Assembly: GCF_023721795.1 (NCBI RefSeq)
Contig: NZ_JAMQYE010000002.1
Coordinates: 372,001-436,000 of the forward strand
DNA from: Zeimonas sediminis
Lineage (GTDB): Bacteria; Pseudomonadota; Gammaproteobacteria; Burkholderiales; Burkholderiaceae_E
Length of the DNA: 64,000 nucleotides
Direction: 5' to 3'
Part shown: piece by piece, positions 2,564-54,479 of the stretch
How positions within the stretch are numbered: the stretch's first letter is position 1
How the letters are laid out: every line of letters starts with the position of its first letter
Translations under genes and position numbers: made by a program
The notes under the pieces: model-generated
The model's input: only the letters and a program-made list of their open reading frames with translations
Told to the model about the DNA's origin: nothing
Databases searched by the model: none

Positions 2564-4320
2564 CCTGTGAGCGCCGGCTGCGCCGGGCCGGCGGCGGGCG
2601 ACCCGAGGGCGCGGGCGAGCGCCGCGATCACCGCCTGCGCGTCGATCGCGCGCCAGCGGGCGCAGACGTTGCCGTCGGGCCGGAGGAGCCAGGCACTTCC
2701 GGGCCTGGCATCGTAGAGCGCCGCGAAGCGCCCGGACGCGTCGACCGCATCCGCCGCGGCCGTGCCCTCGCCGCCCGCAGGAGCGATCGTGACCACCGCC
2801 AGGCCGCAACCCGGCGGCGAATCGGCGAGGATCCGCGCCGCGTCGCCGGCCGGGCCGGCACCTCCTCCGTAGCAAAGCAGGGTGAAGCCGTCGCCGGGCA
2901 GCTGCGTCAGGTGAACGACCGCGCCCGCGGCGTCGCGCAGCGGACACTCGGCGAGCGCCTCGCCGGGCGCGCCCGCGGAGGCCCCGAATTCGCCGGGCCG
3001 GTCCGGCGTATTGAGCGGGGAATCCGGGTACGGAATAGAACTGGATTGCCTCGGATTGATCAGCGAGCGCAGGGCCGGATGTCCGGCCGCCAGCGAGAGC
3101 ACCGCGTCGCGCATCAGCTCGAAGCCGCGCGAGGGCGGCGCCATGAACTCGGTGCTCTTCGTGGCCTGCGCGATGTTCTGCCGCCAGGCATGGCGGCGCT
3201 CGAGCGAATAGCTGTCGAGCAGGCGCTCGGACCCGCCCGGGGGCAGGCCGCCGCGCGCTCCGTTGCCGCCCGCCGCCCGAGCGAGCTTCCACGCCAGGTT
3301 CCAGGCGTCCTCGAAGCCGCTGTTCAGGCCGCGCACGCCGAAGATCGGCACCAGGTGCGCCGCGTCGCCGGCGAACAGCACCCGGCCGTGGCGATAACGC
3401 TCGAGAGACACCGCGCTCGCGCGGTACATGCTGATCCAGATCGCCTTCCAGTCGCCGGTGAAGCCGAGCATCGCGAGCTGGGCCCGGATCACCGGCAGCA
3501 CGTTCTCGGGCCGCACCGCCTCGTCGGGATCCTCGTCGGGCCGCAGCTGGTAGTCGATGCGCCACAGGTCGTCGGGCTGGCGGTGCATCAGCACGGTGCG
3601 CCCCGGATTGGCCGGCGGATCGAACCAGGCGAGCCGCTCGGTGGGCAAACCGAGGTCGGCCTCGATGTCGGCGATCACGTAGCGGCCCTCGTAGCTGGTG
3701 CCCGACATCTTCAGGCCCAGCTGGTCCCGGACCAGGCTGCGCGCGCCGTCGCAGGCGACCAGCCAGTCGGCGTGGACCGCGTAGCGCCGGCCCGCGGCTT
3801 CCAGCGCCAGCTCGACGCCGTGGTCGCCGGCGCTCACTGCCAGGACGCTCGTGCCCCAGCGGACCTCGACCAGCTCCGGGTGCTTCGCGATGCCGTCGAG
3901 CAGGAACTGCTCGATGTAGTACTGCTCGATGTTGGTCATCGGCGCGAGCCGCTGGTCGGCGTCGTGCGGCATCAGGAAGCGAAGCACCTCGGTGTCGCGC
4001 CAGAAGCTGCGACCGCCCGTCCAGGCCAGTCCCTTGTCGACGAAGGCCGGCAGCACGCCCAGCCGATCCAGGATCTCGAGGCTGCGTCGCGACAGGCAGA
4101 TCGCCCGGCTGCCGACGCAGACCGTCTCGTCCGCCTCGACGACCAGCGAGGGCACGCCCAGGCGCGCGAGGCCGAGCGCCACCGCCAGCCCCACCGGGCC
4201 GCCGCCCGCGACCACCACCCTGTGACGCGTGGCCTCCCGCCCGTCGCGCAGCGCAGGCAGGCGCGCCGGGTGGCGCCGGTATTCGAAGGCCCCGAGCCGA
4301 TCGGGTGTCCGGAGCTGCAT
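2560..4320 (-). CDS. FAD-dependent aromatic monooxygenase (MhpA/PheA-like)
   Basis: A 586-residue group A flavin monooxygenase. It has the dinucleotide-binding VVVAGGGPVGLAVALGLA near residue 40, the conserved ACDGARSLVRDQLG motif near residue 190, and RVLFAGDAAHLVPIFGVRGL that binds the FAD ribityl chain. The C-terminal third is the thioredoxin-like domain typical of MhpA (3-(3-hydroxyphenyl)propionate hydroxylase) relatives. Such enzymes use NAD(P)H and oxygen to hydroxylate phenolic acids. No ring-cleavage genes are nearby, so the substrate is open. The start is set at MQLRTPDRLG; the frame is open upstream but that part is antisense to coaBC. Confidence 0.88.
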   Translation of the reverse strand: MQLRTPDRLGAFEYRRHPARLPALRDGREATRHRVVVAGGGPVGLAVALGLARLGVPSLVVEADETVCVGSRAICLSRRSLEILDRLGVLPAFVDKGLAWTGGRSFWRDTEVLRFLMPHDADQRLAPMTNIEQYYIEQFLLDGIAKHPELVEVRWGTSVLAVSAGDHGVELALEAAGRRYAVHADWLVACDGARSLVRDQLGLKMSGTSYEGRYVIADIEADLGLPTERLAWFDPPANPGRTVLMHRQPDDLWRIDYQLRPDEDPDEAVRPENVLPVIRAQLAMLGFTGDWKAIWISMYRASAVSLERYRHGRVLFAGDAAHLVPIFGVRGLNSGFEDAWNLAWKLARAAGGNGARGGLPPGGSERLLDSYSLERRHAWRQNIAQATKSTEFMAPPSRGFELMRDAVLSLAAGHPALRSLINPRQSSSIPYPDSPLNTPDRPGEFGASAGAPGEALAECPLRDAAGAVVHLTQLPGDGFTLLCYGGGAGPAGDAARILADSPPGCGLAVVTIAPAGGEGTAAADAVDASGRFAALYDARPGSAWLLRPDGNVCARWRAIDAQAVIAALARALGSPAAGPAQPALTG

Positions 4321-51698: not shown

Positions 51699-51713
51699 GA
51701 CAGGGTGGCGGCC

Positions 51714-52634
51714 ATGACGCTCAAGCACTTCCTGCAGTTCAAGGACCTCACGCGCGAGGAGATCGAGTACCTGTTCGTGCGCGCCCGCATCATCAAGGAG
51801 CGGTTCAAGCGCTACGAGACCTACCACCCGCTGGCCGACCGCACGCTGGTGATGATCTTCGAGAAGGCCAGCACCCGCACCCGACTCTCGTTCGAGGCCG
51901 GCATGCACCAGCTGGGCGGCGCGGCGATCTACCTGAACACCCGCGACTCGCAGCTCGGGCGCGGCGAGCCGGTGGAAGACGCCGGGCAGGTCATCTCGCG
52001 GATGTGCGACCTGGTCATGATCCGCACCTTCGAGCAGGAGATCGTCGAGCGCTTCGCCGCGAACTCCCGGGTCCCGGTGATCAACGGACTCACCAACGAG
52101 TACCACCCCTGCCAGATCCTGGCCGACATCTTCACCTTCATCGAGCACCGCGGCCCGATCACCGGCAAGACGGTCGCCTGGATCGGCGACTCCAACAACG
52201 TCTGCAACACCTGGCTGCAGGCGGCCGAGCTGCTCGACTTCAACGTGCACGTGTCGACGCCGCCAGGCTACGAGGTCGAACCCGAGCGGGCCGGCCTGTT
52301 CGGCACCGATCACTTCGAGCAGTTCGCCGACCCGATGGAGGCCTGCCGCGGGGCCCACCTGGTCACCACCGACGTGTGGACCAGCATGGGCTTCGAGGCC
52401 GAGAACGACGAGCGCCGCAAGGCCTTCGCCGACTGGTGCGTCGACGCCGAGATGATGTCGGTGGCGGCGCCCGACGCGGTGTTCATGCACTGCCTGCCGG
52501 CGCACCGCGGCGAGGAGGTGGCCGCCGAGGTCATCGACGGGCCGCAGTCGGTGGTGTGGGACGAGGCGGAGAACCGGCTGCACGCGCAGAAGGCGCTGAT
52601 GGAGTACCTGCTGCTGGGGCGCCTGGCGACCTGA
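51714..52634 (+). CDS. argF: Ornithine carbamoyltransferase
   Basis: A 306-residue enzyme forming citrulline from ornithine and carbamoyl phosphate. The carbamoyl-phosphate loop is FEKASTRTRLSFE; the ornithine motifs are DVWTSMGFE and HCLPAHRGEE. The start is set at ATG 51714 (MTLKHFLQFKDL, the family norm), though GTG 51705 is in frame. Its TGA lies inside the left arm of the large inverted repeat that follows. Confidence 0.96.
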   Translation: MTLKHFLQFKDLTREEIEYLFVRARIIKERFKRYETYHPLADRTLVMIFEKASTRTRLSFEAGMHQLGGAAIYLNTRDSQLGRGEPVEDAGQVISRMCDLVMIRTFEQEIVERFAANSRVPVINGLTNEYHPCQILADIFTFIEHRGPITGKTVAWIGDSNNVCNTWLQAAELLDFNVHVSTPPGYEVEPERAGLFGTDHFEQFADPMEACRGAHLVTTDVWTSMGFEAENDERRKAFADWCVDAEMMSVAAPDAVFMHCLPAHRGEEVAAEVIDGPQSVVWDEAENRLHAQKALMEYLLLGRLAT

Positions 52635-52926
52635 GCGCGCGTTTCGCGGCGTCGCGCCGACGTTATCAGTGGCATTCGCCCGGGCCGGGGGCGGCCAGCC
52701 CGAAGCGGGGCATGGTGCTGCGGCCCCGCTTCGCGGGGCTTCCCTCGCCCACCTCGAAATCTCGCACCCGCCTCGCAGGGGGCTTCGCCCCGCGGCGAGC
52801 GGGTCCCGCGAGATTTCTTTCGGTGGCGCTCGGCTTGCACGATGCCCCGCTTCGGGCTGGCCGCCCCCTGCCCTGGAGCTTGTGGACTGCGCGGCGTCGG
52901 CGCGACGCCGCGAAACGCGCGCTCAG
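52631..52926. repeat. 296-bp nested inverted-repeat element between convergent genes
   Basis: The outer arms are perfect 31-bp inverted copies (52631-52661 and 52896-52926, beginning CTGAGCGCGCGTTTCGCGGC). A second pair of perfect 27-bp arms is at 52687-52713 and 52842-52868 (core CGGCCAGCCCGAAGCGGGGC). Inside are GAAATCTCGC/GCGAGATTTC (52756-52765 and 52808-52817), ACCCG/CGGGT, and hairpins such as CCCCGC-TTC-GCGGGG. The outer arms contain the TGA stops of argF (52632-52634) and of the aminotransferase (complement of 52923-52925) at mirror positions. No ORF I believe in lies within, and no flanking target-site duplication is evident. Confidence 0.85.
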
Positions 52927-54479
52927 TCTTGTCGATCCAGCGTGTCGAGATCGAGCGAACGGATCGCGCCGATCGCGACCTCCCACCTTCCCTCGGCGCA
53001 CAGGCCGCGCATGCCGGCGTCTTCCCAGGCTTCGAGCGCTGCCGCGAGGCAGGCTTCGCGCACCCGGTCGCCCCGCGGGCCCGACGGCCCCGGCTGCGAC
53101 GGGTCGCCGGCCGTGGCGGCCGCAGCGTTCGAATCGGCCGCGCCGGTCGACCGGGTCGATGCGGCGGCACTCGATCCGCGCGGCGACGCACCGGGATTCG
53201 CGCCGGTCGCTTCGGCGCCAGTCGCCGCCTGCCCGCGCAGCGCGCGATGGGCCCGGGCCAGCCTTGCGACCGCCTCGGCGAGCTCGGCCGGCGTGGCGGT
53301 GGAGAAGCTGAGCCGCAGCGCCGAGCGATCGGGCTCGGCGTCGTAGAAAGCCTCGCCGGGCACGAAGATCATGCCCTCGTCGCGGGCGCGCGGCAGCAAG
53401 CGCGAGGTGTCGGTGCCGTCGGTGAAGCGCGCCCACACGAACATGCCGCCCTGGGGCCGCGAGAAGCGCAGCGCAGGGCCGAAGGCCTGCGCCAGCGCTT
53501 CGCACAGCGCGTCGCGCCGCTCGCGGTAGGCCTCTCGCATCGCGGGCATCCGCGCCTCCAGCCGGCCGCTCGCCAGGTAGCGCGCGGCGATCGCCTGCGC
53601 CAGCGTCGAGGTGTGCAGGTCAAGCGCCTGCTTGATCCGCACCACCGGCCCGCGCAGCCAGTCCGGCAGCACCGCGTAGCCGATCCGCAGGCCCGGCGCC
53701 AGCACCTTGGACAGCGAGGACACGTAGCCGCACAGCCCGGCCGCGCCCGGCACCCGGGGCGCGAGCGCGACGAGCGGCGGCAGGTGCTCGCCCTCGACCC
53801 GCAGGCCGCCGTAGGGATCGTCCTCCAGCACGAACACCCGGTTGCGCACCGCCCACTCGAGCAGCGCGATGCGCCGATCCAGGTCCAGCGTGGCGCCGGT
53901 CGGGTTCGCGAAGTTCGTGACCGCGTAGGCGAGCTTCAGGCGCCCGCCGGCCGGTCCGCCCTGTTCCTTGCCGCCGAGCCCCGCCGCCTCGGGCAGCGCC
54001 TCCACCCGCAGGCCCCGCGCGTCGCCGGCCACGCCGACGCAGCGCGCCTCGGTCAGCGCGAACACCTGCAGCGCGGCCAGGTAGCCGGGCCGTTCGACGA
54101 CGACGCGATCGCCCGGCTCGAGCAGGGCCCGCGCGATCAGGTCGAGCGCCTGCTGCGATCCGGTCGTGACCAGCGGCGCGTCGTCGGAAACGCTCGCCCC
54201 CCGGGCGCGCAGGCTCGCGGCGAGCTGGGCGCGCAAGGCCTCGTCGCCCTCGGTCGTGCCGTATTGCAGCGCCTCGCGCGGAACCTCACGCAGCACCGCC
54301 CCGGCGGCCTCGGCCAGTCCGTCCACGTCGAACAGATCGGGCGCCGGCAGGCCGCCCGCCAACGAAAGCATGCCGGGCCGTCGGGCGTCGTGCAGCAGGT
54401 CGCGCACGGCCGAGCTGCGCATCGCGCCTGCTCGCCGCGCCAGCAGCTTCCGGGGATCGTCGGGATTCGCGCGGTCCAT
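52923..54479 (-). CDS. PLP-dependent class I/II aminotransferase with C-terminal extension
   Basis: A 518-residue protein. Residues to about 405 form a fold-type I aminotransferase like LysN/2-aminoadipate transaminase: LSLAGGLPAPDLFDVDGL, LQYGTTEGDEALR, TTGSQQALDLIARALLEPGD, NFANPTGATL, PLP lysine in GYVSSLSKVLAPGLRIGY and LRLSFSTATP. A 50-residue Ala/Ser/Gly linker follows, then a helical C-terminal domain (REACLAAALEAWEDAGMRGLCAEGRWEVAIGAIRSLDL, cited in part) that resembles small stand-alone Burkholderiales proteins. This tail is not part of the aminotransferase family. Its stop lies in the right arm of the inverted repeat. Confidence 0.85.
   Translation of the reverse strand: MDRANPDDPRKLLARRAGAMRSSAVRDLLHDARRPGMLSLAGGLPAPDLFDVDGLAEAAGAVLREVPREALQYGTTEGDEALRAQLAASLRARGASVSDDAPLVTTGSQQALDLIARALLEPGDRVVVERPGYLAALQVFALTEARCVGVAGDARGLRVEALPEAAGLGGKEQGGPAGGRLKLAYAVTNFANPTGATLDLDRRIALLEWAVRNRVFVLEDDPYGGLRVEGEHLPPLVALAPRVPGAAGLCGYVSSLSKVLAPGLRIGYAVLPDWLRGPVVRIKQALDLHTSTLAQAIAARYLASGRLEARMPAMREAYRERRDALCEALAQAFGPALRFSRPQGGMFVWARFTDGTDTSRLLPRARDEGMIFVPGEAFYDAEPDRSALRLSFSTATPAELAEAVARLARAHRALRGQAATGAEATGANPGASPRGSSAAASTRSTGAADSNAAAATAGDPSQPGPSGPRGDRVREACLAAALEAWEDAGMRGLCAEGRWEVAIGAIRSLDLDTLDRQD

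Follow-up and report, generated by a model that had tools for sequence, protein, structure and literature searches.

The window, a 64-kb stretch of the Zeimonas sediminis genome, contains argF and a convergent class I/II aminotransferase gene, whose 3′ ends meet in a nested palindrome of 296 bp at positions 52631 to 52926 (Table 1). The initial annotation had described this structure from the letters alone, with perfect outer arms of 31 bp, perfect second arms of 27 bp, and the stop codons of both genes at mirror positions. The palindrome itself was confirmed in the sequence, and so was the perfect complementarity of its outer arms, which are 32 nt long and not 31. The second (inner) arms, between which the folded core lies, are 37 bp long with two mismatches (35/37 matching), and the 27 nt first reported are a perfect run inside them. 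The TGA of argF (52632-52634) and that of the aminotransferase (52923-52925 in plus-strand coordinates) are mirror-placed as described, and in both genes the identity of the arms begins one base ahead of the TGA.

Table 1. Features of the palindrome between argF and the convergent aminotransferase gene, in window positions
Feature	Position	Strand	Basis and remarks
argF, ornithine carbamoyltransferase, left flank	51705..52634	+	ORF; Pfam PF00185/PF02729; TGA inside outer left arm
Class I/II aminotransferase, convergent right flank	52923..54479	-	ORF; Pfam PF00155; TGA inside outer right arm
Outer left arm, 32 nt	52631..52662	+	Contains argF CTGA; not found in Z. arvi
Outer right arm	52895..52926	+	Perfect reverse complement of outer left arm; contains aminotransferase CTGA
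Internal loop, left strand, outer to inner arm	52663..52681	+	GTGGCATTCGCCC-type, similar in other copies; read by eye
Internal loop, right strand	52874..52894	+	TGGATGTCGTGC-type in other copies; read by eye
Inner left arm	52682..52718	+	Sequence specific to locus
Inner right arm	52837..52873	+	Complementary to inner left arm at 35/37
Branched core, type A, conserved	52718..52839	+	As aligned; overlaps arm ends by 1-3 bases
Core hairpin 1, CCCCGC-TTC-GCGGGG	52724..52738	+	Sequence; helix 1 of covariation analysis
Main core stem, 5′ side, GAAATCTCGC	52756..52765	+	Covarying helix 4
Main core stem, 3′ side, GCGAGATTTC	52808..52817	+	Covariation analysis

A scan of the window for inverted 20-nt seeds no more than 400 nt apart gave 21 matches. 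No such seeds were found when the scan was limited to the window before 52601 and after 52960, or in 100 order-1 Markov sequences of equal length, and the whole 64 kb held no further inverted repeat of at least 24 bp and at least 90% within 500 nt. The palindrome is the sole structure of its kind in the window, and a chance origin is ruled out. Its RNA folding z-score is about -17 on both strands, with none of 200 shuffles equally stable. A U-tract terminator (G+C-rich hairpin plus T run) was not found in 52500-53060, which is still compatible with a terminator lacking a U-tract. No Rfam 15 family reached its gathering score in 52300-53260, where a single below-threshold miRNA match fell outside the palindrome.

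Judged by sequence similarity, the palindrome belongs to a family of dispersed hairpin repeats found in Zeimonas and its close relatives. The initial annotation had named the lack of any second copy in the genome as part of what would speak against it, and such copies exist: when the genome (3.86 Mb, three contigs) was searched at the DNA level, the element had 20 matches, of which two are the window site, and a second core type had 15 including the query. At least 29 copies in this genome carry arms. Among 61 genomes, 18 contained matches to the element, namely the present genome, 15 of the remaining 17 genomes of the genus (a pair of which match barely), and two from other genera of the family, which give short matches. 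The second core type was matched in 16 of the 18 genus genomes, part of them weakly. A pattern search of named genomes returned 23 stretches: nine from Zeimonas arvi, 11 from metagenome assemblies labelled Lautropia, Burkholderiaceae, Burkholderiales, or Limnobacter, and one each labelled Gordonia, Pirellulales, and Pseudomonadota. Plasmids, phages, and viral contigs gave no match to the element at blastn sensitivity or to an exact 24-base pattern. For closer comparison, 38 stretches were sampled, 18 from this genome and 20 from Z. arvi, with 28 elements in each genome, and the copies are mostly common to the two genomes by descent. An additional locus of this genome (L206) has perfect arms of 33 nt.

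The conserved part of the element is a branched core of approximately 120 to 165 nt, which occurs in two main types (A and B). A third, more diverged type is seen in elements paired with type-B copies (L127:3336-3548, L130:3286-3502, and L143:3451-3633). Covariation was analyzed at 38 pairs in 21 type-A cores picked by motif from the sampled loci, and 15 of the 38 pairs showed two-sided changes. Two-sided cells numbered 62 against a shuffled mean of 15.9, a count reached in 0 of 500 shuffles, and slid controls gave 2 to 6. One of the five covariation measures, further pair types, was not above the shuffles (19 versus 17.8, reached in 156 of 500). Only 3 of 798 core cells are G-U pairs. The core pairs covary, a signal that reads the same for RNA and for DNA structure. 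Between orthologous flanks the core is inverted at two loci (L136 versus L154 and L157 versus L206). At a further pair of loci, a type-B element of this genome (L129:3363-3570) and a type-A element of Z. arvi (L142:3337-3529) have orthologous arms, alike at 31 of 34 positions; here the core was exchanged within its arms.

The arms are self-complementary and free in sequence. Their sequence is private to nearly every copy; in this genome and Z. arvi their length is typically 30 to 38 nt, and a single copy (L158) lacks arms altogether. Congeners have arms of as much as 165 bp (162 matching) around the same core, and several exceed 100 bp. We counted 79 arm pairs, taking as such any inverted repeat of 22 nt or more whose arms stand 105 to 160 nt apart inside a defined element, and left out one repeat spanning two elements. 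Their 4023 base pairs comprise 3918 Watson-Crick, 16 GT/TG, 26 AC/CA, and 63 other pairs; RNA wobbles are therefore not favored in the arms. Each arm pairs with its partner at approximately 97 to 98%, a low mismatch that is partly by construction because arms were picked by complementarity. The telling figure is instead the contrast within and between elements: in 16 orthologous arm pairs matched by hand between this genome and Z. arvi, the mismatch within elements is 19/1057 (1.8%), whereas the orthologues differ at 134/553 positions (24.2%), including length changes matched on both sides.

Base composition of the arms is skewed. In the 5′ arms, G exceeds C in 68 arm pairs versus 7 and T exceeds A in 51 versus 19, ties left out (48 versus 3 and 34 versus 13 without Z. 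arvi), counts that overstate significance because the elements are not independent, many being orthologues and L128:2941 and L128:5110 having nearly the same arms. The GC skew is 0.143 in the arms and 0.011 in the 40-nt flanks, with conserved arm edges adding to the G excess; the T-A skew is 0.203 in the arms and 0.121 in the flanks, so that a T excess is present in the flanks too. The sign of the skew was unchanged in the 19 arm pairs of tandem contexts. Two neighboring copies, L128:2941-3152 and L128:5110-5321, lie about 2.2 kb apart and are an exception to the locus-specific rule, with arms alike at 29 of 31 positions by eye, which points to recent duplication or conversion. In another genome (L238 of G013), an 11-bp tandem duplication near the core, present in one arm only, breaks an otherwise perfect arm and is possibly the trace of a recent slip.

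The elements lie behind genes. Of 56 elements in the two genomes, 38 have convergent neighbors, 18 are in tandem context, and none has divergent neighbors, according to a simple codon-usage gene finder and with one site lacking the element in this genome left out. In eight other genomes, 25 elements were distributed as 12 convergent, 10 tandem, two without a right gene (contig end), and one divergent. The last, L233:1496-1701 (G009), is the sole element that the gene finder placed between divergent genes. The initial annotation had proposed checking whether other copies start at stop codons; mostly they lie close to one, with a facing stop codon no more than 60 nt away in 47/56 elements of the two genomes and 18/25 of the eight others, and no more than 100 nt away in 51/56 and 20/25. 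Many loci carry inverted pairs of elements. These are mostly in plus-then-minus order, yet tandem contexts occur both ways, so that no fixed orientation of the core relative to the upstream gene is claimed. Members of an inverted pair can be near identical in parts of the core (L123:3096-3135 / 3478-3517, 40/40; L138:3026-3077 / 3494-3545, 51/52), which suggests local conversion between adjoining elements. At L137, three tandem copies of GGGGTGTC lie directly to the right of the first element, between the paired elements.

At the window site, comparison with relatives bears on the origin of the two stop codons. In Z. arvi, too, the element separates argF from the same aminotransferase gene; its inner arms are perfect and of different sequence, and outer arms were not found at this orthologous site. 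Both flanking genes end in CTGA in Z. arvi, and their C-termini are equal in length to those of this genome (RLAT*/RLAS* and SLDLDTLDRQD*/SLDLHAIAPRD*). Since Z. arvi has both CTGA ends and C-termini of the same length without the outer arms, the stop codons at the window site are native, and the proposal that the element supplies them was rejected here. The 32-bp outer arm is then an extra inverted copy between two native stops, for which a gain in this genome and a loss in Z. arvi fit equally. Because CTGA was common to both genes beforehand, more than one position would serve as the precise boundary of the copy. Among 10 of 18 genomes readable behind argF, the core motif (two errors allowed) was found in G000, G006, and G007, once and far downstream in G015, and was missing from the 6 other loci read. 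G006 carries the element at the argF site too, on a contig that stops inside the element.

At other loci, the idea that stop codons come with the element found support, as mirrored arms bear the same C-terminal codons and stop (L146; L221/L239). At one orthologous locus, three genomes (L238 in G013, L221 in G004, and L239 in G008) have the element flanked by the same pair of convergent genes. Here the right gene ends in LLAPSP* in G013, TDAL* in G004, and SRLADYATDAL* in G008, and in the latter two its end is the C-terminus of the left gene, so that both genes end in TDAL* or SRLADYATDAL*, respectively. In L239, the 11-residue C-terminus and stop stand on both convergent genes, within a mirrored stretch that is 135 bp long with four mismatches and whose first 36 nt belong to the coding sequence of both genes. 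Of 13 further genomes, 11 have a similar C-terminus on the left gene, with the motif unmatched in the other two, and the right-gene homologues of three other genomes have different ends. At L146 of Z. arvi, the left and right genes end in RLATA* and RRSATA*, compared with RMMSASA* and GRS* in this genome; this is an independent mirrored gene end, for which either side may be the donor. At L148 of Z. arvi, the coding end of the right gene is copied in inverted form (24 nt, two differences) into the left noncoding flank, and the orthologous stretch of this genome has the gene's own copy only, with no inverted copy.

Of the suggested mobile palindromic element, the repetition was borne out, with dispersed copies. 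As to its mobility, 12 sites at which this genome and Z. arvi seemed to differ in the presence of an element were compared, and none showed a clean insertion junction. The lacking side held clear remnants in three comparisons (L135/L153, the L123/L160 pair, and L133/L155) and probable remnants in two (L134/L186 and L145/L203). The element was found on both sides in L157/L206, and L126/L194 and L156/L208 gave no usable gap alignment. A target duplication with a clean empty site was found in none of the 12, the remainder being ambiguous. A search for a Y1-type transposase (PF01797) matched neither this genome nor Z. arvi; across the 18 genomes of the genus, three had any match, two of them above the cutoff. 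The conserved terminal inverted repeats that mark a MITE were not seen, as the arms are locus-specific, apart from the two neighboring L128 copies. Insertion into the loops of preexisting terminator hairpins was likewise dropped, because comparable inverted repeats occur nowhere else in the window, those in the 38 loci lie at elements, and the arms of orthologous elements keep changing. The paired inverted copies resemble BIMEs, and REPs are short (approximately 20 to 40 nt), conserved, imperfect palindromes. Identity with REP/RAYT systems was rejected on the missing Y1 match here and in Z. arvi, a core of about 120 nt or more, and the variable arms. REP/BIME repeats with RAYT, as outlined in PMC8266576, are also dispersed, palindromic, and intergenic, whereas the repeats here are much longer, their arm sequence is not conserved, and neither Z. 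sediminis nor Z. arvi has a Y1 transposase match.

We propose that, during replication, template switching across the core hairpin repeatedly remakes one flank as a copy of the other, and we consider this the probable origin of the arms. The conserved branched core would act as the folding nucleus. When the region is single stranded, most plausibly during replication, the growing strand would fold back or switch template at the core, so that one flank serves as the template for the other. Repeated events would keep the arms near-perfectly complementary while their sequence drifts freely, and would add inverted copies outward, giving nested arms; the 32-bp outer arm in this genome may be such a copy between two native stops. 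Occasionally the copying would enter the adjoining gene and overwrite its end, including the stop, and most events would end near stop codons because going further would damage a gene. This one process would account for the perfection of the arms, their outward growth, the inversion of the core, and the mirrored gene ends. Gene conversion, among the options of the initial annotation, comes closest in the sense of arm homogenization (1.8% versus 24.2%; mirrored gene ends), most likely achieved by template switching.

In line with the behavior of quasipalindromes, the arms appear to have been perfected by copying one from the other, as was outlined for E. coli quasipalindromes, where template switching is the cause (PMC7202029). 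In yeast genes, template switching is summarized as homogenizing arms and inverting spacers (PMC8604942). Intrastrand template switching is also predicted, in the account of PMC8794818, to leave an excess of G-C and U-A as read from the 5′ arm, and the G-over-C and T-over-A excess of the arms matches the bias derived there. We infer that template switching during replication does the copying, rather than recombination, and that the core promotes the switch. Several observations count against this reading. Template switching is best known for short quasipalindromes, and the loop between the arms here is approximately 115 to 150 nt. The covariation of the core (15/38 pairs two-sided) is also predicted by structural selection. 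The core-oriented wobble count gives AC/CA 26 versus GT/TG 12 (34 positions, 56 elements), a count that takes in conserved end mismatches and four elements without an orientation score and is not relied on here. More tentatively, the conserved core may be regarded as an inverted-copying engine behind genes, which, wherever it settles, would lead the cell's own replication to produce mirror copies of the flank, grow palindromes up to the gene edges, and exchange C-termini and stops between unrelated convergent genes.

Selection on RNA would explain the same stems as bidirectional 3′-end structures (terminator, mRNA stabilizer, or RNase III substrate) kept by compensatory mutations. The gene context (38/56 convergent, 18/56 tandem, 0 divergent; 47/56 within 60 nt of a facing stop), the covariation of the core, and the extreme folding energy on both strands all agree with it, and the rarity of wobbles would be expected if both strands were transcribed, since wobbles would then be disfavored. 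Set against this are the arms of 100 to 165 bp in congeners, far longer than terminators need, the 3 G-U pairs in 798 core cells together with the lack of favored wobbles in the arms, the multibase and length changes matched on both arms, the overwritten coding ends, and the lack of a U-tract terminator at the window site. We therefore regard RNA selection as an unlikely cause of the arms. Since the elements sit where 3′ ends form, an RNA role in addition, as a 3′-end or terminator hairpin, is possible. Recombination, as RecA-dependent gene conversion or sister-chromatid exchange that homogenizes arms and inverts the core as in large palindromes, would fit the core inversion at two orthologous loci, the core type exchanged at L129/L142, and the long arms of congeners. 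It appears quite unlikely, given inner arms of only about 32 bp, a short length for RecA-dependent exchange, and given that identity reaches into unique coding sequence at L239, L221, and L146, which exchange among arms already in place does not alone bring about. On long arms, RecA-dependent conversion may still act.

A palindromic element that is mobile, inserting at the ends of genes and carrying its stop codon and arms along, would be in keeping with the dispersed related copies at gene ends and with the variation in site use between clades, as at the argF site. We hold this very unlikely: the arms differ between copies and lie outside any conserved unit, the stops at the window site are native, the 12 comparisons revealed remnants and no clean junction with a target duplication, a Y1 transposase match is lacking here and in Z. 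arvi, and phages, plasmids, and viral contigs had no match at the sensitivity used. Inverted duplications are a known class of artifact, as a fold-back chimera of assembly or library would produce. Such an artifact is extremely improbable, with the same core at the same site in the independent Z. arvi assembly and the family in 16 of 18 genus genomes, some weakly; it is conceivable for the outer 32 bp alone, which are seen in this assembly only.

Template switching, the reading that we prefer, links the family to several described systems. Template-switch mutation at E. coli quasipalindromes, as outlined in PMC7202029, likewise perfects imperfect inverted repeats on a nascent-strand template; here, in contrast, a conserved core stands at about twenty sites in one genome, adjoining gene ends are copied, and the arms of relatives reach 165 bp. 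Template switching at RNA hairpins shares the perfect stems, the matched multibase changes, the loop inversion, and the predicted 5′ excess of G and U, but the system presented in PMC8794818 consists of rRNA and other RNA genes with short stems, whereas ours are intergenic DNA elements with long arms and adjoining coding ends. In S. cerevisiae coding genes, arm homogenization, spacer inversion, and altered protein are similarly described within single genes and with short arms (PMC8604942, in summary), unlike the mirroring seen here, in which a convergent gene receives the C-terminus of another gene. The coding palindromes known from Nematomorpha mitochondria are also long, perfect inverted repeats overlapping coding sequence; they lie within mitochondrial protein genes, and the abstract mentions no conserved repeat core (PMC6649704). 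The 92 bacterial stem-loop repeat families of PMC2267715, compared by abstract, are likewise repeated, mostly intergenic, and of common fold. Among the best-ranked results of our literature searches there was no description of this repeat, and papers mentioning Zeimonas, judged by title, included none on repeats. The template-switch reaction is known; a family of bacterial repeats that rests on it, with arms free in sequence at many loci and gene-end transfer between convergent genes, was not found in these searches.

The family offers a natural set of parallel loci, with more than two dozen copies in one genome and arms of as much as 165 bp in relatives, in which template-switch copying could be followed over bacterial evolution. 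It also calls for caution, in that perfect, covarying intergenic stems need not reflect selection on RNA, as copying at the DNA level can give the same signal. For the genes concerned, it provides a route by which a gene can gain a new C-terminus and stop from an unrelated neighbor. If the inverted-copying engine is real, the element would be a repeat with a specific, heritable effect of local inverted duplication.
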